From assembly GCF_003151255.1 (NCBI RefSeq), contig NZ_CP029481.1, positions 3,472,001 to 3,536,000 of the forward strand: a DNA stretch of 64,000 bases. The letters are read 5' to 3'. Positions 25,775-43,013 of this stretch are shown one piece after another. This DNA is from Microvirga sp. 17 mud 1-3 (GTDB lineage: Bacteria; Pseudomonadota; Alphaproteobacteria; Rhizobiales; Beijerinckiaceae). Position numbers and translations under genes: made by a program. A model generated the notes under the pieces. The model did not search any database. It was not told the origin of the DNA and saw nothing but the letters and a program-made list of their open reading frames with translations. Numbering within the stretch: position 1 is the first letter of the stretch; each line of letters begins with the position of its first letter.

Positions 25775-25922
25775 CCACAGGCAAAGGGGCTTTTTCGCTT
25801 GCGGGACCGGGCTTTCGCCCGATCCCTCGAAAGACGCATTCAAGGGTCTTGACCGGCAGGCCTATTGATTGGAGCTTAGCCGACCAAGAAAAACAAAATA
25901 CCATCCACGTGGGAGGATCCAA

Positions 25923-26969
25923 GTGAAACTGAAGAAGACCTTCATTGCGGCCACGATGCTGGCCGGCACCACCGCGGCCCTGTCGTTCCTGTCGGCCGCT
26001 TCGGCCCAGGCCCAGGGCGCGCTCGTGATGTATTGCGGCGTGCAGGAAGAATGGTGCCGGGCCATGACGACCGCCTTCGAGCGGGAGACGGGCATCAAGG
26101 TTTCGATGACCCGCAAGAGCTCGGGCGAGATCTACGCCCAGGTCAAGGCGGAGTCCGCCAATCCCCGCGCCGACATCTGGTGGGGCGGCACGGGCGACCC
26201 GCACATGCAGGCCGCCGAGGAAGGCCTCACGGTCGAGTACAAGTCGCCCAAGCTCGGCGAGCTTCAGGACTGGGCGGTGCGCCAGTGGGAGCAGTCCAAG
26301 AACCGCACGGTCGGCATCTATTCGGGCGCGCTCGGCTTCGGCTACAACACCGAGCTCATCAAGTCGAAGGGCGTCGCCGAGCCGAAATGCTGGGCCGATC
26401 TGCTCAATCCCAAGCTGAAGGACGAGGTCCAGATGGCGGACCCGAACTCCTCCGGCACGGCCTATACGCTGCTGGCCACCATCGTCCAGATCATGGGCGA
26501 GGATAAGGGCTTCGACTATCTCAAGTCCCTGCACAAGAACATCAACCAGTACACCAAGTCCGGCGCCGCTCCGGCCAAGGCCATGGCGCTCGGCGAGACC
26601 ACGGTCGGCATCGCGTTCATGCACGACATCGTGACCATGGTGGTGGACAAGGCTCCCGTGAAGGTCGTCGCCCCCTGCGAGGGCACGGGCTACGAGATCG
26701 GCTCCATGTCGATCATCAAGGGCGCCAAGAACATGGACAGCGCCAAGAAGTTCTACGACTGGGCGCTGACCCCCGCGGCGCAGAAGCTCGGCGCGGAGGC
26801 CAAGTCCTACCAGGTGCCGTCGAACAAGAGCACGCCGGTTCCGCCGCAGGCTCCGAAGCTCGAAGAAATCAAGCTGATCAACTTCGACTTCGCGAAGTAC
26901 GGTTCCTCGGAGGAGCGCAAGCGTCTCCTGTCCAAGTGGGACAACGAGGTGAAAAACCTGCCGAAATAG
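25923..26969 (+). CDS. AfuA/FbpA-like ABC substrate-binding protein
   Basis: A 348-residue periplasmic binding protein. It starts at GTG after GGGAGGATCC and has a signal peptide ending AQAQG (about residue 31). The family is usually labelled ferric-iron binding, but the tyrosine pair of FbpA is missing. Instead H234-D235 (FMHD) and E258 (GTGYEIG) are present, with the same spacing as His205/Asp206/Glu229 that I recall as sugar-phosphate ligands in AfuA of Actinobacillus pleuropneumoniae. I therefore favour a phosphorylated sugar or related anion over iron. It is followed by a strong terminator and then the permease and ATPase genes. Confidence 0.85.
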   Translation: MKLKKTFIAATMLAGTTAALSFLSAASAQAQGALVMYCGVQEEWCRAMTTAFERETGIKVSMTRKSSGEIYAQVKAESANPRADIWWGGTGDPHMQAAEEGLTVEYKSPKLGELQDWAVRQWEQSKNRTVGIYSGALGFGYNTELIKSKGVAEPKCWADLLNPKLKDEVQMADPNSSGTAYTLLATIVQIMGEDKGFDYLKSLHKNINQYTKSGAAPAKAMALGETTVGIAFMHDIVTMVVDKAPVKVVAPCEGTGYEIGSMSIIKGAKNMDSAKKFYDWALTPAAQKLGAEAKSYQVPSNKSTPVPPQAPKLEEIKLINFDFAKYGSSEERKRLLSKWDNEVKNLPK

Positions 26970-26988
26970 TCGGCCCGGTCTTCCGTTC

Positions 26989-27019
26989 GGCGAGGCCCGC
27001 AAGGCCTCGCCGCTTTTTT
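26989..27019 (+). terminator. intra-operon terminator between binding protein and permease
   Basis: A perfect 9-bp stem (26989-26997 with 27003-27011, loop CGCAA) is followed by GC and six T. It lies 20 bases after the binding-protein stop and 60 before the permease. Partial termination here would give excess binding protein over membrane components. Confidence 0.85.
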
Positions 27020-27078
27020 GTCATTGGTGAACACCCCTGGAGGACGGCCTCGGCGCCCCTCCAAGGATTCGTGCGAGG

Positions 27079-29274
27079 ATGGATATGTCGCGGGCAACCC
27101 TCGGCTGGATCGTCCTGGGCTGGATCGGTTACGCGCTCCTGCCCTGGTATGGCTTCGATCGCGCTGCTTCCGTCGGCTGGACGGATGCTCTTGTGGGCGG
27201 ATCGGGCCTGGTGCTCGGCCTGAAGGGCGCATGGTGGCTCCTGCCGGTCATCGCCCCGCTGCTCATGCTGCTGCGCCCCGCCATGCGGCCCGACCCGGCC
27301 TCCCTGGCCGACTGGCTGACCGGGGCGGGCATCCTCGGCCTTCTCCTCATCCTGCTGCAGGGCTTCTCCATCGGCCTCAACGGCTGGACTTACGACTTCC
27401 TCAAGTCGCTCTTCGGCGAGCCCGGCCCGCATCAGGCCGGCATGGGCTACGGCGCCGCGCTCACGGCCACGGCCTTCCTCATCCTGCTCTGCCACGGGCT
27501 TGCGGCCCGGGGCTGGTGCCGGGGCGATGCCTTCGTGACCTCGTCCATCGGCGTGGTCATCGCCCTCATCATCGTGTTCGTGTTCTTCCCCGTCACGACC
27601 ATCCTGGCCAGTGCCTTCGCGGACGATGCGGGCCATTTCGCCCCCCTGGTCTTTCTGGAAAAGTTTGTGGACCGGTCGATCTGGGGCCTCGACTGCCTGA
27701 CCGGCGACCTGCGCTGCGGCGTTGCCTGGAACACCCTCTTCCTCGGCATCCTCGTGGCCTTCGGCACCACCGCGCTCGGCCTCGCCTTTGCGCTGATCGC
27801 CACGCGCACGAGCTTCCGCTTCAAGAAGCTGCTGCGCGTCATGAGCGTCCTGCCCATCATCACGCCGCCCTTCGTGATCGGCCTTGCGCTGATCCTGCTC
27901 TTCGGCCGCTCGGGCGCCCTCTCGGCTGTTCTCTACGACTGGTTCGGCATTCCGCGCTCCCGCTGGATCTACGGCCTGCCCGGCGTCTTCATCTCCCAGC
28001 TCCTGGCCTTCACGCCGATCGCCTTCCTGGTGCTGATCGGGGTGGTCCAGGGCATCAGCCCCACCCTCGAGGAAGCCTCCCAGACCCTGCGCGCGAAGAG
28101 CTGGACGACCTTCCTCACGGTCACCCTCCCGCTCATGCGTCCAGGCCTCGCCAACGCATTCCTGCTCGGCTTCGTGGAAAGCCTCGCCGATTTCGGCAAT
28201 CCCCTCGTCCTCGGCGGAAACTACGAGGTGTTGTCCACCAAGATCTTCTTCGCGGTGGTCGGCGCGCAGCAGGACCAGGGACGCGCAGCGGTTCTATCGA
28301 TCATCCTGCTCGGATTCACGCTCGGCGCCTTCTGGCTCCAGCACGCCTGGCTCGGCAAAAAGGTCTACACCACGGTCACTGGCAAGGGCGATGCGGGCAT
28401 TCCGCTGCCGCTGCCGCGCCGGGTCGCCCTTGCGTCCTATCTCACGGCGATCCCCTGGGCCGTGTTCACCCTCGTGGTCTACGTGATCATCTTCGTCGGC
28501 GGCTTCGTGCGCTCCATGGGCCGCGACTACACGCCCACCCTCGACCATTTCCTCACGGCCTTCCGGGTCGAGCAGGCCGAGTGGGGCCTGTACTTCTCGG
28601 GCTCCGCCTGGGATTCCTTCTTCGCCACCGTGAAGGTCGCGGCGCTCTCGGCTCCGCTGACCGCGGCCATCGGCCTGCTCACCGCCTATCTCCTCACGCG
28701 CCAGCGCTTCTCGGGCCAGCGCGCCTTCGAGTTCGGCACGCTCCTGAGCTTCGCCATTCCGGGCACGGTCGTCGGCGTATCCTACATCCTGGCCTTCAAC
28801 GTGCCGCCCATCGAAATCACCGGCACGGGCTTCATCCTGGTGATGTGCTTCGTGTTCCGTAACATGCCGGTGGGCGTGCGCTCCGGCATCGCGACCCTGA
28901 GCCAGATCGACAAGAGCCTCGACGAGGCCTCCCTGACGCTGGGCGCCCGGTCGGCCACCACCATGCGCCGGATCGTGCTGCCGCTGCTCCGCCCCGCCAT
29001 CGTAGCCTCGCTGGTCTATTCCTTCGTGCGCGCGATGACCGCGGTCAGCGCCGTCATCTTCCTCGTCACGGCGGAGTACAACATGGCCACGACCTATATC
29101 GTCGGCCGCGTCGAGGCGGGCGAGTTCGGCCTTGCCATCGCGTATTCGACGGTGCTCATCTTCGTGATGCTCCTGGCGATCGTCGCCATCCAGTTCGCCG
29201 TCGGCGAGCGGCGCCTGGGTCGCCGCAGCGCCGGCACCAACACTGCTCCCATCGCCATCCAGGCTGCGCCATGA
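27079..29274 (+). CDS. AfuB/FbpB-like fused ABC permease
   Basis: A 731-residue inner-membrane permease with two BPD_transp_1 halves in one chain. Both cytoplasmic EAA loops are present: TLEEASQTLRAKS in the first half and SLDEASLTLGARS in the second, each followed by a PLLRP-type turn. An N-terminal extension of about 150 residues adds several membrane helices before the first half; this is usual for the AfuB group. A second ATG at 27085 has a better-spaced GAGG site and may be the true start. The stop overlaps the ATPase start by four bases (ATGA), which couples translation. Confidence 0.88.
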   Translation: MDMSRATLGWIVLGWIGYALLPWYGFDRAASVGWTDALVGGSGLVLGLKGAWWLLPVIAPLLMLLRPAMRPDPASLADWLTGAGILGLLLILLQGFSIGLNGWTYDFLKSLFGEPGPHQAGMGYGAALTATAFLILLCHGLAARGWCRGDAFVTSSIGVVIALIIVFVFFPVTTILASAFADDAGHFAPLVFLEKFVDRSIWGLDCLTGDLRCGVAWNTLFLGILVAFGTTALGLAFALIATRTSFRFKKLLRVMSVLPIITPPFVIGLALILLFGRSGALSAVLYDWFGIPRSRWIYGLPGVFISQLLAFTPIAFLVLIGVVQGISPTLEEASQTLRAKSWTTFLTVTLPLMRPGLANAFLLGFVESLADFGNPLVLGGNYEVLSTKIFFAVVGAQQDQGRAAVLSIILLGFTLGAFWLQHAWLGKKVYTTVTGKGDAGIPLPLPRRVALASYLTAIPWAVFTLVVYVIIFVGGFVRSMGRDYTPTLDHFLTAFRVEQAEWGLYFSGSAWDSFFATVKVAALSAPLTAAIGLLTAYLLTRQRFSGQRAFEFGTLLSFAIPGTVVGVSYILAFNVPPIEITGTGFILVMCFVFRNMPVGVRSGIATLSQIDKSLDEASLTLGARSATTMRRIVLPLLRPAIVASLVYSFVRAMTAVSAVIFLVTAEYNMATTYIVGRVEAGEFGLAIAYSTVLIFVMLLAIVAIQFAVGERRLGRRSAGTNTAPIAIQAAP

Positions 29275-30395
29275 ACCAGATGTCCAACGTATCCTCCCTC
29301 TCCGTCCCAGGTGCCGCGCGAACGACCCGCAAGGAGGCGGCCTCCGTGGAGTTCCGCAACGTGACCAAGCGCTACGGCAAGGTCACGGCCGTGGACAGCG
29401 TGTCCTTCTCGATTGCGCCCGGGGAACTCGTGACCCTGCTCGGCCCGTCCGGCTGCGGCAAGACCACGACCCTGCGCATGATCGCCGGCCTGGAAATGGC
29501 AAGCGAAGGCCAGATCCTGATCGGCAACCGGGACGTCACGAACCTCTCGGCCGCCGACCGCGACGTGAGCATGGTGTTCCAGTCCTATGCGCTCTTCCCG
29601 CATATGTCGGTGCTGGAGAACGTGGCCTATGGGCCGTCCGTGCAAGGCATCCCGAAGAAGGAAGCCCACGCGATGGCCATGGAGAAGCTCGGCCTCGTAG
29701 GCCTTACGGGCCTCGAGAAGCGCGCGCCCTCCGAATTGTCCGGCGGCCAGCAGCAGCGCGTCGCCGTGGCGCGCGCCCTCGTGCTCGAGCCGCAGGTCCT
29801 GCTCTTCGACGAGCCCCTCTCCAACCTCGACGCGAAGCTGCGGCGACGGGTGCGTGAGGACATCCGCGAATTGCAGCAGAGCCTGAACCTGACGGTCGCC
29901 TATGTGACCCACGACCAGGAAGAGGCGCTCGCGGTCTCCGACCGCATCATCGTGATGTCGAATGCCCGCATCGCCCAGACCGGCGCCCCGCGGGAACTCT
30001 ACGAGGAGCCGGCCGACCTGTTCGTGGCCGACTTCATCGGCGACGCGAACATTCTCGACGGCACGCTCCTCAGCCGGGAGGGCTCCGACGCGCAGGTGCG
30101 CATCGGCGGTGTGGTCCTTACCCTGCCCCATCGCGGCGCGAATCCGGGCCCGGTCAAGCTCGCGGTGCGGCCCGATGCCATCCTTCTGGAGGAAGGCCCG
30201 GCCGGAGAGGGAGTCCTGGCGGGCACTGTCCGGAAGGCCTCCTATCTCGGGACGCAGGTGGAATACGATGTGGAAAGCCCCATCGGCACCCTGTTCGTGG
30301 TTCAGTATGGCCGCAAGGAGCCCATCGCACCGGGCACGCCGGTCTCGATCTCCCTGACGCGCCAGCGCGGCGTGGCGGTCATTCCTAACGCCTGA
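29271..30395 (+). CDS. AfuC/FbpC-like ABC transporter ATPase
   Basis: A 374-residue ATPase of the importer (MalK/PotA/FbpC) group. Walker A GPSGCGKT is at 58-65, signature LSGGQ at 156-160, Walker B LLFDEP with D180/E181, and the H-loop in YVTHDQEEAL. A C-terminal TOBE-like domain (about 245-370) follows, as in importers whose activity is tuned by regulators. It energises the permease encoded just upstream, whose stop codon it overlaps by four bases. Convergent with the potassium-channel gene. Confidence 0.92.
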   Translation: MNQMSNVSSLSVPGAARTTRKEAASVEFRNVTKRYGKVTAVDSVSFSIAPGELVTLLGPSGCGKTTTLRMIAGLEMASEGQILIGNRDVTNLSAADRDVSMVFQSYALFPHMSVLENVAYGPSVQGIPKKEAHAMAMEKLGLVGLTGLEKRAPSELSGGQQQRVAVARALVLEPQVLLFDEPLSNLDAKLRRRVREDIRELQQSLNLTVAYVTHDQEEALAVSDRIIVMSNARIAQTGAPRELYEEPADLFVADFIGDANILDGTLLSREGSDAQVRIGGVVLTLPHRGANPGPVKLAVRPDAILLEEGPAGEGVLAGTVRKASYLGTQVEYDVESPIGTLFVVQYGRKEPIAPGTPVSISLTRQRGVAVIPNA

Positions 30396-33226: not shown

Positions 33227-34390
33227 TTACAGCCGGCCCGCCAATGCGGTCTCGTAGAGCCGGCGGGCGCTCTCCTTCGTAATCGGAACCGGGTTGCCGC
33301 CCGCAGTCGGATCGTCCGGGGCCATGGCGGACATCTCGTCGAAGCGGGCTGCGTCGATCTTCAGGCCCTCCAGCGTGTGCGGCACACCGAGATCCTTGCG
33401 CAGCTGCAGCACCCAGTCGAGGAAGGCCTGGAAGCTCGGCTCCAGCCCGATATAGGCGGCGAGCCGCTCGATCCTCTCTTCGATGGCAGCGCGGTTATAG
33501 ACCAGCACGTAAGGCATGAAGACCGCGTTGGTGAGCCCGTGATGGGTGTCGTAGAGTGCGCCCGCAGGATGCGACAGGGCGTGGATGGCGCCCAGCCCCT
33601 TCTGGAACGCGGTGGCGCCCATGGCGGCGGCCGACATCATGTTGGCGCGGGCCTCGATGTCCCGCCCGTCCTTGTAGGCCCGCGGCAGGTATTCCTTCAC
33701 GAGGCGGATGCCCTCCACGGCGATGCCGTCCGCCATCGGGTGATAGCCAGGGGCGCAATAGGCTTCGAGGCAATGGGCGAGCGCATCGAGCCCCGTCCCG
33801 GCCGTGATGTGAGGCGGCATGCCGACCGTCAGCTCCGGGTCGCAGATCGTGATCCTCGGCATCATGAGCGGATGGAAAATCACTTTCTTGGTGTGGGTCG
33901 CCTCCTGGGTGATGACGCCCGCGCGCCCCACCTCCGAGCCGGTGCCGGCCGTGGTCGGCACCGCGATGATCGGCGCGATCCCCTTCGGGTCCGCCCGGGT
34001 CCACCAGTCGCCGATATCCTCGAAATCCCACATGGGCCGCGTCTGGCCCTTCATGAAGGCGATGACCTTGCCGGCATCGAGAGCCGAGCCGCCGCCGAAG
34101 GCCACGACACCGTCATGCCCGCCGGCCCTCAGGGCCTCCAGCCCCTTGTAGACATTGGTCTCGACCGGGTTCGGCTTGATCTCCGAGAAGATTGCGGCCT
34201 TGAGGCCCGCGGCCTTCAGGGCCTCCAGGGCGTTCTTCGTCATGGGCTGGGTGGCGAGGAACGGGTCCGTCACGATGAGCGGCGCCGTCATGCCGACCGA
34301 TTTGCAGGCCTCGGCCAGTTCGGCGATGCGGCCGGCGCCGAAGCGGATCGCGGTCGGGTAGTTCCAGTTGGAGCGGGGAGAAGCGGTCAT
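33227..34390 (-). CDS. iron-containing alcohol dehydrogenase
   Basis: A 387-residue group III (FucO-like) dehydrogenase. NAD-binding GGGS is at 99-102 and metal ligands are D202, H206, H270 and H284, with the same spacing as FucO. The frame extends further upstream into the neighbouring aldehyde dehydrogenase gene, but similarity begins at the ATG at 34390. It is the last gene of a five-gene leftward operon, 11 bases after the aldehyde dehydrogenase. In this setting it probably oxidises the terminal alcohol of a gamma-glutamylated amino alcohol to the aldehyde. Group III enzymes also act on small diols, so specificity is not proved. Confidence 0.9.
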   Translation of the reverse strand: MTASPRSNWNYPTAIRFGAGRIAELAEACKSVGMTAPLIVTDPFLATQPMTKNALEALKAAGLKAAIFSEIKPNPVETNVYKGLEALRAGGHDGVVAFGGGSALDAGKVIAFMKGQTRPMWDFEDIGDWWTRADPKGIAPIIAVPTTAGTGSEVGRAGVITQEATHTKKVIFHPLMMPRITICDPELTVGMPPHITAGTGLDALAHCLEAYCAPGYHPMADGIAVEGIRLVKEYLPRAYKDGRDIEARANMMSAAAMGATAFQKGLGAIHALSHPAGALYDTHHGLTNAVFMPYVLVYNRAAIEERIERLAAYIGLEPSFQAFLDWVLQLRKDLGVPHTLEGLKIDAARFDEMSAMAPDDPTAGGNPVPITKESARRLYETALAGRL

Positions 34391-34401
34391 GTGAGGCGCA
34401 C

Positions 34402-35793
34402 TCAGAGCTGACGGAGATGGAAGGATTTCGGACGGGTGAGCGACTCGTAGGCGAGGCGCGAGAGACTGGCGCCGCGGCCCGTATCCTTCACGCCCGTCCA
34501 CGCGAGAGCCGGATCGAGATAGTCGCAGCGGTTCATGAAGACGGTGCCGGTCTCAAGCCTGTCGCCGATCGCCTCCGCGGCATCCAAGTCGGAGGTCCAG
34601 ATGGCGGCCGAGAGGCCATAGGGCGAGTCGTTCATGAGGCGGATCGCCTCCTCGTCGCCCTTCACCTTCATGATACCGACGGTTGGCCCGAAGCTCTCCT
34701 CGCGCATCACGCTCATGGAATGGTCCACATGCGTGAGCACCTGCGGCGCCAGATAGGCGCTGTCCCCGCGATCCGCCGCGAAACGCTTCGCGTCGATATG
34801 CGCCCTGGCGCCCTTGGCCACGGCCTCGGCGTTCTGCTGGCGCACGAGGTCGGCGAAGCGCTTATGCGCCATCGGCCCGAGGGTCGTCGCCTCGTCGAGC
34901 GGGTTGCCGAGCACGTATGTGTTCACGAGCGCAACCGCACCTTCCACGAATCGGTCATAGTGCTTTTCATGGACGTAGATGCGCTCGATGCCGCAGCAGC
35001 ACTGGCCGGAATTGAAGAAGGCGCCGTCCACCAGGTTCTCGATGGCGTGGCCGATATCCGCATCCTCGCGCACATAGGCCGGGTCCTTGCCGCCGAGTTC
35101 GAGGCCGAGCGACGTGAACGAGCCCGCCGCCGCGCGCTCGATGGCCCGCCCGCCCGCGACCGAACCGGTGAAGTTGCAATGGTCCACGAGACCGCCGCCG
35201 AGAATGCGGCTCGTCTGATCGTGACTGAGATGAAGGTTCTGGAAGAGGCCCTTCGGCAGGCCGGCCCGGTCGGCCGCCATCTGGAAGCGCTCACCCGCCA
35301 AAACGGTCTGCGAGGCGTGCTTGAGCAGAACCGCGTTGCCGGCCATGAGCGCCGGCGCGACGGTGTTGATGGCCGTGAGATAGGGGTAGTTCCAGGGCGC
35401 GACGACCAGCACGAGGCCGACCGGCTCGCGCTTGATCATGCGCCGGAAGCCCGGCTTCTCGTCATCCGGCGGAAGAGCCTTCAGGCTCTCCTCGGCGATG
35501 CGGACCATGTGGCGCGCCCGCTCCTCGACGCCCCGGAACTCGCCGCCGTAGCGGACGGGGCGGCCCATCTGCTGGGCGAGCTCCGGCACCACCTCCTGGT
35601 TCATGGCGACGAGCGCATCGAGCAGGCCCAGAACCTTGGCGGCGCGCTCGGCAAGGGGCACGTGCCGCCAGGCCTTCTGTGCCTCTCGCGCCGCCGCGAT
35701 GGCGGCCTCGATGGCGGTCTCGGACATGATGGGACGGCGAACGAGCTCGCGCCCGTCGATGGGGGAAACGCAGACGATATCGGTGTCGGCCAT
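34402..35793 (-). CDS. NAD(P)-dependent aldehyde dehydrogenase
   Basis: A 463-residue ALDH. The oxyanion Asn is N135 (PWNYP), the cofactor lysine K158, the general-base Glu E232 (LELGGKDP), and the catalytic cysteine C266 within an unusual triple-cysteine GQCCCG. All key residues are present. It lies 12 bases downstream of the glutamine-synthetase-like gene and 11 upstream of the iron alcohol dehydrogenase, so the two dehydrogenases likely act in succession, oxidising alcohol to aldehyde to acid. A gamma-glutamyl aldehyde is the proposed substrate, by analogy with PuuC and with gamma-glutamyl-alaninol oxidation in isopropylamine degradation. Confidence 0.9.
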   Translation of the reverse strand: MADTDIVCVSPIDGRELVRRPIMSETAIEAAIAAAREAQKAWRHVPLAERAAKVLGLLDALVAMNQEVVPELAQQMGRPVRYGGEFRGVEERARHMVRIAEESLKALPPDDEKPGFRRMIKREPVGLVLVVAPWNYPYLTAINTVAPALMAGNAVLLKHASQTVLAGERFQMAADRAGLPKGLFQNLHLSHDQTSRILGGGLVDHCNFTGSVAGGRAIERAAAGSFTSLGLELGGKDPAYVREDADIGHAIENLVDGAFFNSGQCCCGIERIYVHEKHYDRFVEGAVALVNTYVLGNPLDEATTLGPMAHKRFADLVRQQNAEAVAKGARAHIDAKRFAADRGDSAYLAPQVLTHVDHSMSVMREESFGPTVGIMKVKGDEEAIRLMNDSPYGLSAAIWTSDLDAAEAIGDRLETGTVFMNRCDYLDPALAWTGVKDTGRGASLSRLAYESLTRPKSFHLRQL

Positions 35794-35805
35794 GATCGTG
35801 CTTTT

Positions 35806-37197
35806 TCAGATGATCTCGAAATACCGGGCGAGCTGCCAGTCGGTGATGGCTTTCCTGGCCTCCCGTTCCTCCCATTCGCGCGTTGCCGCATAATGGTCAA
35901 CGAAAGTGTCGCCGAAAAGCTGGCGGGCGGGCTTCGAGGCCCTCAGGCGCTCGGCGGCCTCGCCCAGCGAGCGGGGCAGTGCCCGCTTCTTCGGATGCTT
36001 CACCTCGTAGGCATTGCCCTGGATCGGATCGCCGGGCTCGATCCTGTGCTCGATGCCCCAGAGGCCCGACCCGATGGCGGCCGCGAGCGCGATGTAGGGA
36101 TTGATGTCCGCCGCCGCGACCCGGTACTCCACGCGCTGCGATTTCTCGGAGCCGGGGATCACGCGCAAAGCCGTGGTGCGGTTCTCCACGCCCCAGGCCG
36201 CATCGGTCGGCGCCCAGAAGCCCGGGATGAGGCGCGTATAGCTGTTCACCGTGCAGGCAACCATGGCGAGCATCTCGGGCATCAGCTGCTGCTGCCCGCC
36301 CACGAACCAGCGCATCGTGTCCGACATGTTGTGCGGTTTGTCCGGATCGTAGAAGGCGCCCTTGCCGGACTTCACGTCGCGCAGGGAGGTGTGGAGATGG
36401 CCGGACTGCCCCGGCCAGTCGCGGGACCACTTGGCCATGAAGGTCGCCATCCAGCCGCGGCGCTGGGCGAGGATCTTGGTGTAAGTCTTGAACAGGGCAG
36501 CCTTGTCGGCGGCCTGAAGCGCATCGTCGACTCGGATGGCCGCTTCGAGCACGCCGGGGCCGGTCTCCGTGTGGAGGCCCTCGATCTCGAAATCCATCTT
36601 GGCCGCCATGTCGAGCAGGTCGTGATAGAATTCCGAGTGCACGCCCGAGCGCAGCACCGAATAGCCGAAGAAGCCGGGCGTGATGTTTTTCAGGCCGCGA
36701 TAGCTTTTCTCGCGGACGGAATGCGGCGTCTCCTCGAACAGGAAGAACTCGAACTCGGCCGCGGCCGAGACCGCGAAGCCCATGTCGTTTGCCCGGTCGA
36801 GCACCCGGCGCAGGGTCCCGCGGGGACAGGCGGCTTCCGCATAGCCCTCGAACTCGGCCAGGAAGAACGGCAGGTCGTTCTCGAAGGGGATCAGCCGCAT
36901 GGTATCGGGCAGGATCCTTGCCGTGGCGTCCGGATAGGCCGTGTGCCAGCCGGTGAGCGTGGTGTTGTCGTAGAGCTGGTCGTTCGAGTCCCAGCCGAGC
37001 ACCACGTCGCAGAAGCCGAAGCCCTTCTCCAGGGCGGATTCGAACTTGTCCCGGGCCATATACTTCCCGCGCATGATGCCGTCGACATCGACGAGACCGA
37101 TCTTCACGAAGGGCAGGTCGCGGCTGCGCACATAAGCGGCCGCATCGGCCGCCGTCCTGATCTTTGGTATGTCCATGCGAAATGTGGGGGCGTTCAT
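35806..37197 (-). CDS. glutamine-synthetase-like gamma-glutamyl-amine ligase
   Basis: A 463-residue type I GS-fold enzyme of the PuuA/GlnA4/IpuC group, not the housekeeping GlnA. Metal and ATP motifs include AAEFEFFLFE, the TETGPGVLEAAI segment, the SGHLHTSL histidine and ENRTTALRVIP. The adenylylation-site region of GlnA is not obvious. It should join glutamate to a primary amine with ATP. Context (ethanolamine-type permease upstream, alcohol and aldehyde dehydrogenases downstream) points to ethanolamine or another amino alcohol as the amine, rather than putrescine. The start at 37197 is the first Met with family similarity; its Shine-Dalgarno is weak and a hairpin lies just upstream. Confidence 0.88.
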   Translation of the reverse strand: MNAPTFRMDIPKIRTAADAAAYVRSRDLPFVKIGLVDVDGIMRGKYMARDKFESALEKGFGFCDVVLGWDSNDQLYDNTTLTGWHTAYPDATARILPDTMRLIPFENDLPFFLAEFEGYAEAACPRGTLRRVLDRANDMGFAVSAAAEFEFFLFEETPHSVREKSYRGLKNITPGFFGYSVLRSGVHSEFYHDLLDMAAKMDFEIEGLHTETGPGVLEAAIRVDDALQAADKAALFKTYTKILAQRRGWMATFMAKWSRDWPGQSGHLHTSLRDVKSGKGAFYDPDKPHNMSDTMRWFVGGQQQLMPEMLAMVACTVNSYTRLIPGFWAPTDAAWGVENRTTALRVIPGSEKSQRVEYRVAAADINPYIALAAAIGSGLWGIEHRIEPGDPIQGNAYEVKHPKKRALPRSLGEAAERLRASKPARQLFGDTFVDHYAATREWEEREARKAITDWQLARYFEII

Positions 37198-37225
37198 GCC
37201 GGAACCCTGGCGAGAAGGAGCAGGA

Positions 37226-37252
37226 GGGGGAGCGCAGGATCCGCGCTCCCCC
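37226..37252. promoter_or_regulatory. hairpin inside the operon, before the ligase gene
   Basis: A perfect 10-bp stem (37226-37235 with 37243-37252, loop of seven bases) lies between the permease stop and the ligase start. There is no T-tract on the transcribed minus strand. It could protect or process the polycistronic RNA or limit ligase translation. Confidence 0.5.
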
Positions 37253-37259
37253 AGGTTCA

Positions 37260-38795
37260 TCAATAGGATCTGTACTCGGCCTCGCCCTTGGACACGGCGA
37301 ACTCCTCCTCGGGCGAGAGGATGAGCTTATGACGTCCATGGACCAGGAAATAGGCCATCATGACCGCATAATAGACCGCGACCCCGATCACCGCCGTCTG
37401 GAAGACCGGATCGGTGAACTGGAAGAAGAGCGTGACGGCCGCGATGACCATGCAGATCACCGCGCCCGCGACGCCGAAGGGGCTCACATAGGGCCGATGG
37501 AGATGCGCGAATTTCCGCTTCAGCACGATGTAGGACATGCCCTGCATGAAATAGGCCAGCATCGCGCCCGCCACGGCCATGTTGAGCAGCGTTCCGCCGA
37601 TGACGGAACCGCCCGCATCGGCCCCCAGCGAGAACCAGATGATCATCATCACCAGAAGACCGAGGACGGCTCCGGTGATGAGGGCCACGTGCGGGGTCTT
37701 GCGCTGGCCGTGGGTGATGGACAGGAAGCTGGGGAAGTAGCCCGCCCGCGACAGGGAGTAGATCTGCCGCCCGAACGCGAAGATGATCGTGTGGAACGAT
37801 GCGATGAGGCCGATCACCGCGACCGCCGCGAGGATCTTTGCGATGTCGGAGCCGAACAGGGTGCGGAACCCGTCGAGCAGCGGCTCGGTGGACTTGGCGT
37901 ATCCCATAGCGCCCGGCGCGATGCCCGTGTTCAGGAAGATCACGCAGAACGCGGAGGCGATCAGCGTCAGGATGCCGGCGATGATGCCTTTCGGCATGTC
38001 GCGCTGCGGATCGTGGGATTCCTCTGCGGCCAGGGGCAGCTGCTCGATTGCGAGGAAGAGCCACACGGCAAAGGGCATGGTGGCGAAGATGCCGCCGATG
38101 CCCATGGGCAGGAACGGCCCATTGCCCTCCGGCAGTTCCACGCCGCCCGGCCCCATGTTGAGCGCCCAGCGGGAGAAGTCGTACTGGCCCGAGAACAGCA
38201 CCGACAGGTAGAACACCACGAGGCAGGCGAGCGCCAGCAGCGTGACCGTCACGGTGACCTTGAACGACAGCTCGACCCCGACGATGTTCAGCCCGACGAA
38301 AATGGCATAGCAGACGATCCAGTAGATCGGCTGGTAGGCTGGGCCGGTTTCGAAGATCCCGCTCAGGTAGGAGCCGATGAAGAACACGATCACGGCCGGC
38401 GTGAGCACGAACTCGATGTTCTCCGCGATCCCCGTGATATAGCCCGCCCACGGCCCCATGGACGTGCGGGCAAACGAATACGCGCCGCCCGTGTGCGGCA
38501 GGGCCGGCGACATCTCGGCAATCGAGAAGGTGAGGCCGAGATACATGATGGCGATGATGATGGTCGCGAAGAACATCGAGCCGAAGCCGTTGGCGAGGCC
38601 CAGGTTCCAGCCCGAGTAATGGCCCGAGACCACCGCGCCGACGCCGAGCGCCCAGAGCGACCAGACGCGGGCATGGCGCTTCAGGCGCCGGGCCTCGAAA
38701 TAGCTTTCGTCCACGGTAGTGTAGGTAATGCCGGCGGCGCTCTGCGCACCTGCCGGCGGGGCCTGAACCCCGTGACTCCCTTGTCCGACTGACAT
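37260..38795 (-). CDS. APC-family permease, ethanolamine-permease type
   Basis: A 511-residue permease with about 12 membrane helices. The stretch LWALGVGAVVSGHYSGWNLG, then SIAEMSPALPHTGGAYSFAR and GIAENIEFVLTPAVIVFFIGSYL, match the ethanolamine permease (Eat/EutP-like) branch more than amino-acid permeases. The ATG at 38795 has a GGAGGA site nine bases upstream. It is the second gene of the operon and probably brings the amino alcohol across the inner membrane. Related branches import putrescine or other amines, so the exact substrate is inferred from neighbours. Confidence 0.87.
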   Translation of the reverse strand: MSVGQGSHGVQAPPAGAQSAAGITYTTVDESYFEARRLKRHARVWSLWALGVGAVVSGHYSGWNLGLANGFGSMFFATIIIAIMYLGLTFSIAEMSPALPHTGGAYSFARTSMGPWAGYITGIAENIEFVLTPAVIVFFIGSYLSGIFETGPAYQPIYWIVCYAIFVGLNIVGVELSFKVTVTVTLLALACLVVFYLSVLFSGQYDFSRWALNMGPGGVELPEGNGPFLPMGIGGIFATMPFAVWLFLAIEQLPLAAEESHDPQRDMPKGIIAGILTLIASAFCVIFLNTGIAPGAMGYAKSTEPLLDGFRTLFGSDIAKILAAVAVIGLIASFHTIIFAFGRQIYSLSRAGYFPSFLSITHGQRKTPHVALITGAVLGLLVMMIIWFSLGADAGGSVIGGTLLNMAVAGAMLAYFMQGMSYIVLKRKFAHLHRPYVSPFGVAGAVICMVIAAVTLFFQFTDPVFQTAVIGVAVYYAVMMAYFLVHGRHKLILSPEEEFAVSKGEAEYRSY

Positions 38796-38860
38796 AGACT
38801 TTTCCTCCAAGAATAAGTCTGCCCTCTGAAGCCACGGCACACCACGCGCCGTGGCCGTCG

Positions 38861-39643
38861 TCACAGCGTCCGCATTGCCTCCCTCAGCAAGGGTGCGAGA
38901 CGCTTCGCCCACGAGGCCTGTCCGTCTTCCGTGCGGATCAGGTCGTTGCGGATCTCGATCATGAGTGGCGCCAGCCCCCGCCGCACGGCGTGGCGGTCGA
39001 GGGTATGGAAGACCCGGTCGTCCGGGCTGTAGGGTTCGTTCATGCCCACGCAGAGCCCGGCCTCCTGCGCAAGTCCCGCCGAAACGCTGCGGGCGAGGCG
39101 CTTGTCCCGGTCGAAGATGAGGCCGATCTGCCAGGGGCGCGGAACGCCCCGGTAGACGGGCGTGAAGGAATGAATCGACACGACGGCCGCGATCCCGTCT
39201 GCGCGGGAGGCGGCGAAATCCTCAACGGCGCGATGGAACGGCTCATAGACGTCGCTCACCCGCTGCGCCCGCTCCGCAGGCAAAAGCACTGCGTTGCCCG
39301 GAATGGGGGTGTTCTCGCTCACGGGCGCAATCGAATCCGGCGCCGAAGGATCCCGGTTGAGATCGAGAACGAGGCGCGAGACCGTCGCGTGGATCAGCGG
39401 CGCGTCGAGGCTTCCGGACAGGTGCCGCGCCACGCCCAGAGCGCCCGGGTCCCAGGCGATATGGCTTTCCCGCTCATCCGGCCCGAGACCCAGGGTGCCG
39501 TAGCGCGCCGGAATATGGTTGGACGCATGCTCGCAGATGAAGAGAACCGGAAACCGCCCGCCCGCATTCTCGATGCGGGCGACGGCATCCTCGGCGGATC
39601 CGTCGTGCCCGACATCGCTCGGCATCGGTCTCGCATGAGCCAT
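38861..39643 (-). CDS. N-formylglutamate amidohydrolase-like hydrolase
   Basis: A 260-residue member of the HutG-type N-formylglutamate amidohydrolase family (zinc-dependent). Motifs include FICEHASNHIP, DPGALGVARHLS, LVLDLNRDP and VSIHSFTPVYRG. It is the first gene of the operon, with a GGGAGGG ribosome binding site before the ATG at 39643. There are no histidine-degradation genes nearby, so a different amide may be cleaved here; gamma-glutamylglycine, the expected end product of glutamylated ethanolamine oxidation, would release glutamate and glycine. That activity is inference. Confidence 0.87.
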   Translation of the reverse strand: MAHARPMPSDVGHDGSAEDAVARIENAGGRFPVLFICEHASNHIPARYGTLGLGPDERESHIAWDPGALGVARHLSGSLDAPLIHATVSRLVLDLNRDPSAPDSIAPVSENTPIPGNAVLLPAERAQRVSDVYEPFHRAVEDFAASRADGIAAVVSIHSFTPVYRGVPRPWQIGLIFDRDKRLARSVSAGLAQEAGLCVGMNEPYSPDDRVFHTLDRHAVRRGLAPLMIEIRNDLIRTEDGQASWAKRLAPLLREAMRTL

Positions 39644-39679
39644 GCGGCCCTCCCTTCGTTCGCCCGACAGCGACGAGAT

Positions 39680-39693
39680 GGTGTTTGAACACC
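39680..39693. promoter_or_regulatory. candidate RpiR-regulator operator
   Basis: GGTGTTTGAACACC has perfect six-base arms around TG. It lies in the 138-base spacer between the divergent RpiR gene and the hydrolase-led operon, 36 bases upstream of the operon's first start codon. Confidence 0.45.
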
Positions 39694-39781
39694 CGATACG
39701 TCCCGTCTTTTTGTTGTTGTTTTGGAATTTTTGGTACAGGTTCCGGGTATCGTCAAGAACCGGATGTGGACAGGTCGCCCC

Positions 39782-40663
39782 ATGCGCAACGAAAGTACAA
39801 TACATTCCGCTGCGTCACTGACTCTGGCGGATCGCATCCGTCAGGAGATGGAGACCTTCACGCCGACCGAGAAGCGCGCCGCCCACGTGCTCCTGAGCCA
39901 TTATCCCTTCGCGGGCCTCGAAACGGTGGCCGAATTCGCATCCCGCGCAGGCATTTCGGCCCCCTCCGCCCTGCGCTTCGTCAACCGTCTCGGCTTCGGC
40001 GGCTTTCCGGAATTCCAAAGGCATCTGCGCGAGGAGCTGGAGGCTCGCCTCCTGTCCCCGCTCGCCAAGGCCGGACCGAGCGGAACCGGCCAGGCTGCGC
40101 CGGATCTCGCGGCCTTCGCGGAGGCGACGATCGGCAACCTGAGAGCGACGGTCGAGAATATCGCGCCGGCCGAGTTCGAGGCGGTGGTCGCGCTCCTGAG
40201 CGATCCGCGCCGGCGCATCCATTTCACGGGCGGCCGCTTCACGGGAGCGCTCGCCCGCTACGCGGAGAGCCATTTCCGGATCGTGCGCAGCCATGTGGAC
40301 TATATCGACGGACAGCCGGTCCTCTGGCGGGACCGGATGATCGAGATCGGCCGCCGGGACGTGCTCGTCGTGTTCGACATCCGGCGCTACCAGGAGGACG
40401 TGATCGCCCTGAGCGAAACCGCCGCCCGGCAGGGCGCCACCGTGGTGCTCCTCACGGATCCGTGGCTCTCGCCCGTCGCGCGCATCGCCCGCCACGTGCT
40501 GCCGGCCCACATCACCGCTCCCTCCAACTGGGATTCGTCCGCCGGGCTGCTGCTCCTCGCGGAAGCGCTCGTCGGGGCCGTGACGCGGCGTCTCTGGGAA
40601 ACCGCGAAGCCGCGCATGGAGGCGGTCGAACGGCTTCGGGACCAGGGCAGATCAGAGAATTAG
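39782..40663 (+). CDS. MurR/RpiR-family transcriptional regulator
   Basis: A 293-residue regulator: N-terminal HTH_6 (about 20-90; TVAEFASRAGISAPSALRFVNRLGFGGFPEFQ) and a C-terminal SIS-like effector domain (about 125-270). Typical family effectors are phosphosugars, but members beside amine or purine genes also exist. The ATG at 39782 is favoured; a Met six codons earlier is possible. It is divergent from the five-gene operon and is its probable regulator. A palindrome between them is a candidate site. Confidence 0.88.
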   Translation: MRNESTIHSAASLTLADRIRQEMETFTPTEKRAAHVLLSHYPFAGLETVAEFASRAGISAPSALRFVNRLGFGGFPEFQRHLREELEARLLSPLAKAGPSGTGQAAPDLAAFAEATIGNLRATVENIAPAEFEAVVALLSDPRRRIHFTGGRFTGALARYAESHFRIVRSHVDYIDGQPVLWRDRMIEIGRRDVLVVFDIRRYQEDVIALSETAARQGATVVLLTDPWLSPVARIARHVLPAHITAPSNWDSSAGLLLLAEALVGAVTRRLWETAKPRMEAVERLRDQGRSEN

Positions 40664-40668
40664 GCGTC

Positions 40669-41715
40669 TCACTGCGCGGCCGGTGGATCGATCTTCTGCA
40701 GCCAGGCGACCACGAACGGCACCACCAGGCCGATGCCCAGGAACCGGACCAGATGGTGGATGCCCACGTAAAGAGGGTCGAGCCCTAAGACCAGCGCCAG
40801 GATGGTCATGGCCTCCAGGCCGCCGGGCGCGAAGGCGATGAGGCCGTTGGCGAAGCTGACGCCCGCCAGCCAGGCGGCGAGGCCCGCGAAGGCGGTCGCG
40901 ACAACCATGCCGATCGCGAAGGACCCCAGGGCTGCCACGAGCGTGGTGCGTAGGGTCGAGCGCCGCACGTCCCGGAAGCGCTCCGCGATGAAGATCCCGA
41001 TCAGCACGAGGCCTCCGGTCGTGATGACCGGCGGAATGACCCCCGTCACCCATTCGCCCGCATGGCTGACGGTGCTCACCAGGGTGGCGCCGAGCAGGAT
41101 CGGCGCCGCGACCTGCAGGCGCTTGAAGACGAGGCCGACCAGAAGTCCGCCGACGAGGATGAACGCCATCCCGCCGGCGCTCTGGACCGGGAGGCCTTGG
41201 GCGATGAGGGCGCTCCCCGTGCCGCCGCCGCTGAAGACGACCGCGCTCGGCAGGAGCGCGATCAGTACGAAGAGCCGCAGGTTCTGGACGATCGCGATGG
41301 GCGCGACAGCGGCGTTCCGATCGACCGCGATGGCCATGACGGTCGAAAGGGCGCCGGGCACGGAGGCCAGCACCGCATCGTCCCGGCGCCAGCCGGAGAC
41401 CCGCGTGAGCCAGAAGGCGGAGGCGCCCGAAATGGCAATGACGGCGATGACGAGGAGCACCAGGCTCGATGGATAGCGCGCAATGGCCGCGATGGCGGCC
41501 GGCGTCACGGCCGCGCCCATGGAGGCGCCGGAGATCAGCATCGCGGCATCGACCAGAGCCCTGGGCATGGGCAGGGCCCGGCCGGCCCAGTTCCACAGAA
41601 CGATCGCTAGGGCGGAGCCCGACAGCCATGCGGCCGGAACCCCGACCGCGTCGAGCGTCAGGCCGCCGAGGGCAGCGATCAGGATCTGGACGAGATGGGC
41701 AAGAGCGATGCGCAT
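40669..41715 (-). CDS. AbrB-family membrane protein (COG3180)
   Basis: A 348-residue integral membrane protein with about ten hydrophobic helices arranged as two AbrB-duplication repeats, each with a GA/GG-rich crossing (ISGASMGAAVTP, then a related segment near APGGLEAMTI). Old annotations call the family putative ammonia monooxygenase, which the sequence does not support: no metal-binding set is visible. A small-molecule transporter is more likely. Convergent with the RpiR gene, six bases apart. No operon partner. Confidence 0.82.
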   Translation of the reverse strand: MRIALAHLVQILIAALGGLTLDAVGVPAAWLSGSALAIVLWNWAGRALPMPRALVDAAMLISGASMGAAVTPAAIAAIARYPSSLVLLVIAVIAISGASAFWLTRVSGWRRDDAVLASVPGALSTVMAIAVDRNAAVAPIAIVQNLRLFVLIALLPSAVVFSGGGTGSALIAQGLPVQSAGGMAFILVGGLLVGLVFKRLQVAAPILLGATLVSTVSHAGEWVTGVIPPVITTGGLVLIGIFIAERFRDVRRSTLRTTLVAALGSFAIGMVVATAFAGLAAWLAGVSFANGLIAFAPGGLEAMTILALVLGLDPLYVGIHHLVRFLGIGLVVPFVVAWLQKIDPPAAQ

Positions 41716-41810
41716 GACAGGAAACCGGGCCCGAACGGCCCGGAAGGCTCAATGGACAGGGATGGCGCTTACGTCAATGCCGCGCCCGAAGATTGGGCCG
41801 CAAAGACCGC

Positions 41811-43013
41811 TCAGCCTGCGATCCTCGGCAGGGCCTCGGCGATGCGGCGGACCGCCTCTTCCAGGTCGGAGGCCTCGCGGGCATAGCAGAGCCGCAGATA
41901 CCCCTCCCCGGCCTCCCCGAAGGCCGAGCCGGGCGCCAGCCCCACTTTCGCCTCCTCGATGAGCGCCATGGCGACCTCCTTCGACGTCCGGCCGCCTTTG
42001 ATCTTCAGGAAGGCGTAGAAGGCGCCGCTCGGAGGCGGCAGGTCGACATATCCCGTGTCGGCCAGCCGTCCCACGATCTCCCGCCCCGTGCGGGCACGGT
42101 CAATCTGATGGGCGACGAAATCCTCGCCATCCTCAAGGGCCGCAATCCCGCCGCGCTGGACGAAGACGGGCGTTCCGGAGGTCTGGTACTGGATGAGGTT
42201 CTCGATGACCTGGCCGAGGGCGGGCGGCGCTTCGAGCCAGCCGAGACGCCAGCCGGTCATGGCCCAGTTCTTCGAGAAGGTCTGGACGAAGAGGATCCGG
42301 TCCTCCGGGGACATCACATCCCGGAAGGATGGGGCACGCCCGTCGATCGCCAGGGCCGGATCGTGGACGAAGCGGCCGTAGATCTCGTCCGCCACGATCC
42401 AGAGCCCATGCCGCCGCGCGAAATCCAGAAGCGCGCGCAGGTCGGACAGGGTGGCGGTCCAGCCGGTCGGGTTGGCGGGCGAGTTGACGAGAATGGCGCG
42501 GCTGCGCGGCGTCACGGAAGCTTCGAGACGCTCGAAATCGAGGTTCCAGCCGTTCTGCCCGAACACCATCGGCACCGCGACCGGGCGGGCGCCCGCCACC
42601 GTGACCGCGCCGACGAAGTTGGGCCAGGCCGGGGTCGGGATCAGCACGTCGTCCCCGTTGCCGGCCACCATGCGCATGGCGATCTGCATGGCCGGCATCC
42701 CGCCGGTGGTGACGAAGAAGCGCTCCGGATCGGAGGGCAGGCCGTAGACGCGCTCGTGATAGCGCGCCAGGGCCTGGCGCAGGTCCGGGATGCCGCGCTG
42801 ATAGGTGTAGAACGTCTCGCCGGCCGCGAGGGAGCGGGATGCCGCATCGCAGATGAAGGCGGGCGTCGGCAGGTCGCCCTCCCCGACCCAGAGCGGGATT
42901 ACGCCCTCCCGACCCCGGGCATGGTTGAACACGTCGACGATCCCGCTCGACGGCGCCTGCTCGGCCTCCGGACGGAGATTGAAAAGCGACGGAACGGACA
43001 CGGATGCGTTCAT
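41811..43013 (-). CDS. PLP-dependent aminotransferase, class I/II
   Basis: A 400-residue fold-type I aminotransferase. The PLP lysine is K248 in FSKNWAMTGWRLGW; N181 (NSPANPTG) and D209 (VADEIYGRF) complete the cofactor pocket. The start of the chain (VIPLWVGEGDLPTP) matches the aspartate/aromatic aminotransferase-like branch labelled pyridoxal-dependent aminotransferase in many genomes. The exact amino donor is unknown. Cytoplasmic, 95 bases downstream of no clear partner; the AbrB-type gene follows in the same direction. Confidence 0.88.
   Translation of the reverse strand: MNASVSVPSLFNLRPEAEQAPSSGIVDVFNHARGREGVIPLWVGEGDLPTPAFICDAASRSLAAGETFYTYQRGIPDLRQALARYHERVYGLPSDPERFFVTTGGMPAMQIAMRMVAGNGDDVLIPTPAWPNFVGAVTVAGARPVAVPMVFGQNGWNLDFERLEASVTPRSRAILVNSPANPTGWTATLSDLRALLDFARRHGLWIVADEIYGRFVHDPALAIDGRAPSFRDVMSPEDRILFVQTFSKNWAMTGWRLGWLEAPPALGQVIENLIQYQTSGTPVFVQRGGIAALEDGEDFVAHQIDRARTGREIVGRLADTGYVDLPPPSGAFYAFLKIKGGRTSKEVAMALIEEAKVGLAPGSAFGEAGEGYLRLCYAREASDLEEAVRRIAEALPRIAG

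Follow-up and report, generated by a model that had tools for sequence, protein, structure and literature searches.

A probable hybrid operon for ethanolamine catabolism by gamma-glutamylation in Microvirga sp. 17 mud 1-3

How might a bacterium with no EutB in its genome use ethanolamine? The question is raised by a locus of Microvirga sp. 17 mud 1-3 (Beijerinckiaceae, Rhizobiales), of which we analysed a window of 64,000 nucleotides (RefSeq assembly GCF_003151255.1, contig NZ_CP029481.1, positions 3,472,001 to 3,536,000). Five minus-strand genes run from window position 39643 down to 33227 and face a divergent RpiR regulator gene. We believe, with a probability of about 0.8, that these genes serve the catabolism of ethanolamine by gamma-glutamylation and form a hybrid version of the published operon type that is called Eto-type here.

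Pfam confirmed the families named in the initial annotation, five codirectional genes and a facing regulator, and all frames are open. Next to the regulator lies a gene of the N-formylglutamate amidohydrolase (FGase) family (38861..39643, PF05013), the predicted gamma-glutamylglycine amidohydrolase. It is followed by an APC-family permease (37260..38795, PF13520/PF00324), a glutamine-synthetase-like ligase (35806..37197, PF00120) as the predicted ethanolamine gamma-glutamylase, an aldehyde dehydrogenase (ALDH; 34402..35793, PF00171) of conserved position as the predicted gamma-glutamyl-aldehyde dehydrogenase, and an iron-containing alcohol dehydrogenase (ADH; 33227..34390, PF00465/PF25137) as the predicted gamma-glutamylethanolamide dehydrogenase. 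The plus-strand regulator gene (39782..40663) encodes the HTH_6 and SIS domains (PF01418 and PF01380). Several mechanically called reading frames start too early: that of FGase extends to 39805 and that of RpiR begins at 39722, with probable starts near 39643, as the intergenic alignment indicates, and near 39782. The corrected spacing between these two genes is about 140 bp. With starts suggested by homologues, which also give the ADH start, the gaps within the operon are about 11, 12, 62 and 65 bp, so the tight spacing noted earlier holds. The intact catalytic residues noted with it hold as well, since the motifs that unite the FGase with 12 FGases aligned from related operons are preserved and the ligase keeps its catalytic core, whose residues presumably have their usual roles.

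The route, including an FGase-family amidase and an RpiR neighbour, is already published; the ligase clade and the permease are what set this operon apart. Streptomyces coelicolor GlnA4 is reported to make gamma-glutamylethanolamide, and oxidation to gamma-glutamylglycine followed by hydrolysis by a formylglutamate-amidohydrolase-family enzyme has been proposed, with reference to a prediction made in silico for Chromohalobacter salexigens (PMC6529630, mBio 2019). A 2022 review tabulates PF00120, PF00465, PF00171 and PF05013 for C. salexigens (PMC9397018). In Phaeobacter sp. MED193 one operon yields more of its proteins on phosphoethanolamine, its TRAP binding protein binds ethanolamine with a Kd of 7.9 uM, and the authors describe its genes as close relatives of those shown to work in C. 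salexigens and A. tumefaciens C58 (PMC10132767, 2023). The same source draws RpiR adjoining a gamma-glutamylglycine amidohydrolase, a name that gives its function and not a Pfam family. The same layout is annotated on plasmid 1 of Paracoccus denitrificans, where three TRAP genes accompany a gene for an N-formylglutamate amidohydrolase. Within the open-licence literature, a scope that leaves out most subscription papers, we found no enzyme assay of the present operon variant.

In the proposed pathway, the permease would import ethanolamine and the ligase would couple it, with ATP, to the gamma-carboxyl group of glutamate. The iron ADH and the ALDH would then oxidize the alcohol end to yield gamma-glutamylglycine, which the FGase-family enzyme would split into glutamate and glycine. 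RpiR would control the operon from the divergent promoter. The initial annotation had put forward the same steps as an alternative to EutBC, and the comparative evidence supports this mechanism. Its novelty claims do not stand, as the HutG-like final amidase was in print in 2019 and 2022 (PMC6529630, PMC9397018) and RpiR had been drawn beside the amidohydrolase by 2023 (PMC10132767). We favor ethanolamine because the published operons share the enzyme families and their order with this one, and because the ADH and RpiR proteins group mainly with Eto-type sequences. Two further reasons are that a relative of the ligase adjoins a clear ethanolamine permease on a Photobacterium plasmid and that the FDGSS motif and the YEAP glutamate of GlnA are replaced in the ligase.

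The ligase is one of only two PF00120 genes in the genome, the other being GlnA. Compared with this GlnA, it is without the FDGSS motif and has tryptophan in place of the glutamate of YEAP, two features that we take to be the ammonia site of glutamine synthetase; the protein thus looks like a PF00120 ligase without that site, as in an Eto-type operon. It scored 228.2 bits against the glutamine synthetase model TIGR00653, short of the cut-off of 429.15. On the Photobacterium plasmid, a 63% identical ligase relative adjoins a permease that passes the cut-off of the ethanolamine permease model TIGR00908 with 552.9 bits. Relatives of the ALDH and the iron ADH are present there, and no match to FGase or RpiR was seen at that locus.

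A comparison of loci indicated that the layout is no product of chance. We call the ligase clade of this operon type I and that of Eto-type operons type II. The FGase-based scan of named genomes gave 210 loci, and the best 80 were kept as the basis of the following counts. The order of RpiR facing FGase, permease, ligase, ALDH and ADH is kept in 38 of the 39 Microvirga loci, the last being broken by a contig end, and RpiR and FGase are divergent in all 72 loci where both were seen; on these two grounds we reject a chance arrangement. A type I ligase with permease, RpiR, FGase, ALDH and ADH was found in 38 of the 80 loci, every one Microvirga. In another five the type I ligase is not accompanied by this permease, and one or more further genes were not seen; 30 have a type II ligase (RpiR, FGase, ALDH and ADH all seen in 28), and seven show no ligase. 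Mean identity to this genome within Microvirga is lowest for FGase (66%), followed by RpiR (81%), permease (86%), ALDH (89%), ligase (90%) and ADH (91%); the ligase of Microvirga rosea (L104) shares 94% identity with the present one. Across the Microvirga loci L104-L140, L142 and L167 the ranges are 61-73% for FGase, 72-87% for RpiR and 82-96% for the other operon genes.

What follows the ADH gene varies in the order. Among 297 genomes of the order, 23, the host included, have a type I ligase, counted here as a match of at least 62% identity. FGase lies beside the ligase in nine of them, an amidotransferase gene follows ADH in eight, three show neither, and three are contig-cut or partial (G047, G215 and G002). 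Those with neither are G143, where an M20-peptidase-family gene follows ADH, G094 and G006; ten neighbouring reading frames were scanned in G143 and in G094, and none in G006. The amidotransferase search covered 13 genomes, namely 12 without an adjacent FGase and the host as the sole one of the nine with FGase. The eight amidotransferase-type sister operons have RpiR, permease, ligase, ALDH and ADH and no FGase within the fetched 15 kb. In each of these eight, which are all the FGase-less sister operons with a visible end, a PF07722 match (26.6-41.6 bits, cut-off 20.5) starts on the ADH strand no more than about 320 bp beyond that gene. For one such gene the whole protein was checked and proved to be a class-I glutamine amidotransferase, with 73.4 bits to PF00117 and with PRK09065 as the nearest NCBIfam model, whose cut-off it does not reach. 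The putrescine pathway uses hydrolases of the amidotransferase type to cleave gamma-glutamyl amides, and the replacement of FGase by such an enzyme therefore supports the view that FGase acts here as a gamma-glutamyl hydrolase.

The choice of substrate is informed by co-occurrence with EutB. Our sample of the host family comprised 179 genomes, with cut-offs of E<=1e-180 for type I, counted as one group with its subtypes undivided, and E<=1e-130 for type II. Type I ligases were found in 28 genomes, EutB in 67 and type II ligases in 17. Type I and EutB occur together in one genome versus 10.5 expected (p=1e-5), type II and EutB in one versus 6.4 (p=0.003), and type I and type II in none versus 2.7 (p=0.05). 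The rarity of type I together with EutB points to ethanolamine. All eight genomes of the host genus have the type I ligase and none has EutB. The genera g145 and g158 carry type I or EutB by genome, and g131, g132 and g137 type II or EutB, never both; g160 and g133 include one genome each with both. Urease, the single control in the family, was not excluded by type I (present in 23 of 28 genomes versus 20.8 expected) or by EutB (46 of 67 versus 49.8). In the order, type II and EutB share four genomes where 33.5 would be expected (p=2e-17), and at genus level the overlap is 7 versus 16.3. Type I and type II meet in one of the 23 type I genomes versus 9.8 expected (p=3e-5; by genus, one of 11 versus 6.0), and EutB is found in none of the nine FGase-bearing type I genomes versus 2.4 expected (p=0.06).

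Several observations weigh against ethanolamine catabolism as we propose it. Compared with the ligases from 12 type II loci of the order, the operon ligase reaches an identity of only 31-35%. PDB 5dm3, which we take to be the C. salexigens ligase and which is labelled only "L-glutamine synthetase", scores 743 bits to a type II ligase and 199 bits to the operon ligase. In the plasmid collection the nearest specifically named ligase is IpuC, at 38-40% identity; closer matches are named only glutamine synthetase or are unannotated. The "ethanolamine-type" permease of the initial annotation has TIGR00908 as its best NCBIfam model, as that name implied, yet with 335.4 bits it does not reach the cut-off of 381.75. 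The exclusion tests, apart from the genus comparisons, ignore descent. The exclusion of EutB by this ligase clade, seen in the family, is absent from the order sample, where type I and EutB share five of the 23 genomes versus 6.1 expected, which is not significant. These five are four amidotransferase-type genomes and G143, so that EutB is present in four of the eight amidotransferase-type genomes (2.1 expected). Finally, all eight of the latter have an FGase-family gene elsewhere, and the swap of hydrolases is therefore one of locus, not of genome.

The strongest alternative is the same chemistry with another short amino alcohol as the main substrate, e.g. alaninol, 1-amino-2-propanol or 3-aminopropanol, and with other end products such as glutamate and alanine. 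The IpuC pathway passes via gamma-glutamyl-alaninol, and the nearness of IpuC together with the low identity to Eto-type ligases leaves room for a different substrate, as do the separate ligase clade, the permease score and the missing exclusion in the order. We nevertheless consider this unlikely. The exclusion of EutB in the host family and that of type II ligases in the order speak against it, as do the ligase relative beside a clear ethanolamine permease and the position of ADH and RpiR mainly among Eto-type sequences.

Breakdown of a polyamine or aromatic amine by a PuuA- or PauA-like route is far less probable. The ligase does belong to the same broad family, with 200.5 bits against the gamma-glutamylputrescine synthetase model (cut-off 650), but this score and that of the PuuC model are far under the cut-offs, and we rejected a polyamine operon on these grounds. 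The operon contains no amine oxidase or aminotransferase, and the presence of an alcohol dehydrogenase indicates an alcohol end on the substrate.

That the FGase is merely an N-formylglutamate deformylase (HutG) and a bystander, as the Pfam family name would allow, is held very unlikely on NCBIfam scores and a motif alignment: it matches no NCBIfam model, HutG included, at E<=0.001, while another FGase gene of the genome matches the HutG model TIGR02017 (109.1 bits, below the cut-off of 278.75), and its H-x-AWDPGA motif is common to the FGases of related operons and missing from that HutG-matching copy, to which the amidotransferases after ADH in the FGase-less sister operons add a further argument. 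PDB 2odf (Atu2144) scores 209 bits to the operon FGase. A third FGase-family gene of the genome (G000:C1:3698638-3699255; L002, L064) is separated by about 5 kb from that at 3704384; it has a HIAYDIGA motif, unlike the 3704384 copy and the operon FGase, and no NCBIfam match at E<=1e-20.

Is this operon then simply an Eto operon? Phylogenetic analysis used quick searches (LG+G4) of 36-60 chosen rows. In the ligase tree (60 rows) a branch with support 100 separates type II from all other rows; the operon ligase is among the latter, in a set of 15 rows from FGase-bearing type I operons (support 98). L073 was represented by a second copy at 30% identity, and its position is therefore uninformative. 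In the ADH tree the set that holds the operon protein (SH-aLRT 98) comprises 18 type II rows and 12 from FGase-bearing type I operons; outside it stand the eight amidotransferase-type rows with the FGase-bearing type I loci L144, L163 and L165, and also the type II loci L094 and L095. The set with the operon RpiR (96) consists of 16 of the 18 type II rows, 12 rows from FGase-bearing type I operons and one further row; the remaining two type II rows, L183 and L190 (Paracoccus), fall outside it. The FGase and ALDH trees are poorly resolved.

The transporter differs as well, as an APC permease takes the position of the TRAP transporter. This distinction does not always hold: L149 and L190 were confirmed to carry TRAP genes, but the Eto-type locus L087 has an APC permease. 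The permease of the present operon is 58-65% identical to those of seven of the eight amidotransferase-type operons. Among the fetched loci, no match to this permease came from the FGase-bearing operons of other genera, and two of those examined carry another APC permease. Ligase clade and transporter rule out a strict orthologue of the Eto operon. On these sequence comparisons we read the operon as a hybrid of the published type, with a different ligase clade and a permease for the TRAP transporter, the transporter being variable in both types. A bolder version is doubtful, with a minor chance of being right: an Eto-type backbone of RpiR, FGase and ADH would have acquired its ligase and permease from a second amino-alcohol operon, one of the amidotransferase type, the new ligase would have moved the substrate to another amino alcohol, and FGase and class-I amidotransferase, final gamma-glutamyl hydrolases with unrelated folds, would be exchanged among such operons.

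A possible site of regulation lies between RpiR and FGase. Aligning the sequence of this genome with 14 others of Microvirga type and with six more distant loci showed a stretch (39687..39756, minus strand) conserved across the 15 of Microvirga type, with a TTGAC box (the -35-like TTGACG at 39751-39756), a CTGTAYCARAAATT block (39719-39739) and the inverted repeat GAACG-N7-CGTTC (39687-39703), imperfect in this genome. We propose the repeat as a candidate RpiR operator. It stays a proposal because a consensus promoter scan of the region gave one promoter-like site versus 0.9 in shuffles.

Some neighbours and distant relatives deserve mention. An ABC transporter at 25869-30395, ending about 3 kb from the operon, has parts that match models of the transporter for 2-aminoethylphosphonate, a compound chemically near ethanolamine; PhnS2 and PhnU2 score best and PhnT2 comes close behind, none of them reaching its cut-off. 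In all 39 Microvirga loci, some with a gap, the operon is adjoined by genes for an AbrB-family membrane protein and a PRK06108-type aminotransferase (40669-43013). In L077 (G143) and L185 (a Pseudorhizobium flavum plasmid), type I ligase relatives lie beside an aminotransferase gene, with an M20- or P1-family peptidase gene near and no FGase match; other substrates and other final hydrolases are possibly involved. In L187 (a Rhizobium leguminosarum plasmid), a 54% identical ligase relative has near it a gene for a GMC oxidoreductase and one of the gamma-glutamyl-GABA hydrolase family, possibly an operon with GMC in place of the iron ADH.

These findings suggest that a gamma-glutamyl ethanolamine route is common in the order, is built of exchangeable modules and tends not to share a genome with EutB. 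The FGase family would thereby gain a testable second function, which matters for the annotation of its non-HutG members.

Compared with known systems, the operon is closest in layout to the Eto operon of Phaeobacter sp. MED193 (RpiR, GGAH, EtoVWX, ETAGA, GAADDH, GETADH), whose order of functions is the same and which has a TRAP transporter where an APC permease stands here (PMC10132767). Like Eto-type operons, it unites iron ADH, ALDH and FGase with a divergent RpiR; the Eto-type ligases of related operons belong to the other clade and share the 31-35% identity given above. S. coelicolor SCO1611-1615 shares a gamma-glutamylethanolamide synthetase, two dehydrogenases and an amidohydrolase, and several Streptomyces clusters include a permease gene (PMC6529630). 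It differs in that the figure legend lists a short-chain dehydrogenase and a glutamine amidotransferase, while the text places SCO1615 in the formylglutamate amidohydrolase family, and in its regulator, EpuRI instead of RpiR (PMC6529630). The isopropylamine ligase IpuC of the Paenarthrobacter aurescens TC1 plasmids, 38-40% identical to the operon ligase, stands in a 21 kb region with no annotated FGase or iron ADH, among genes for a P450, a ferredoxin and an amidotransferase.

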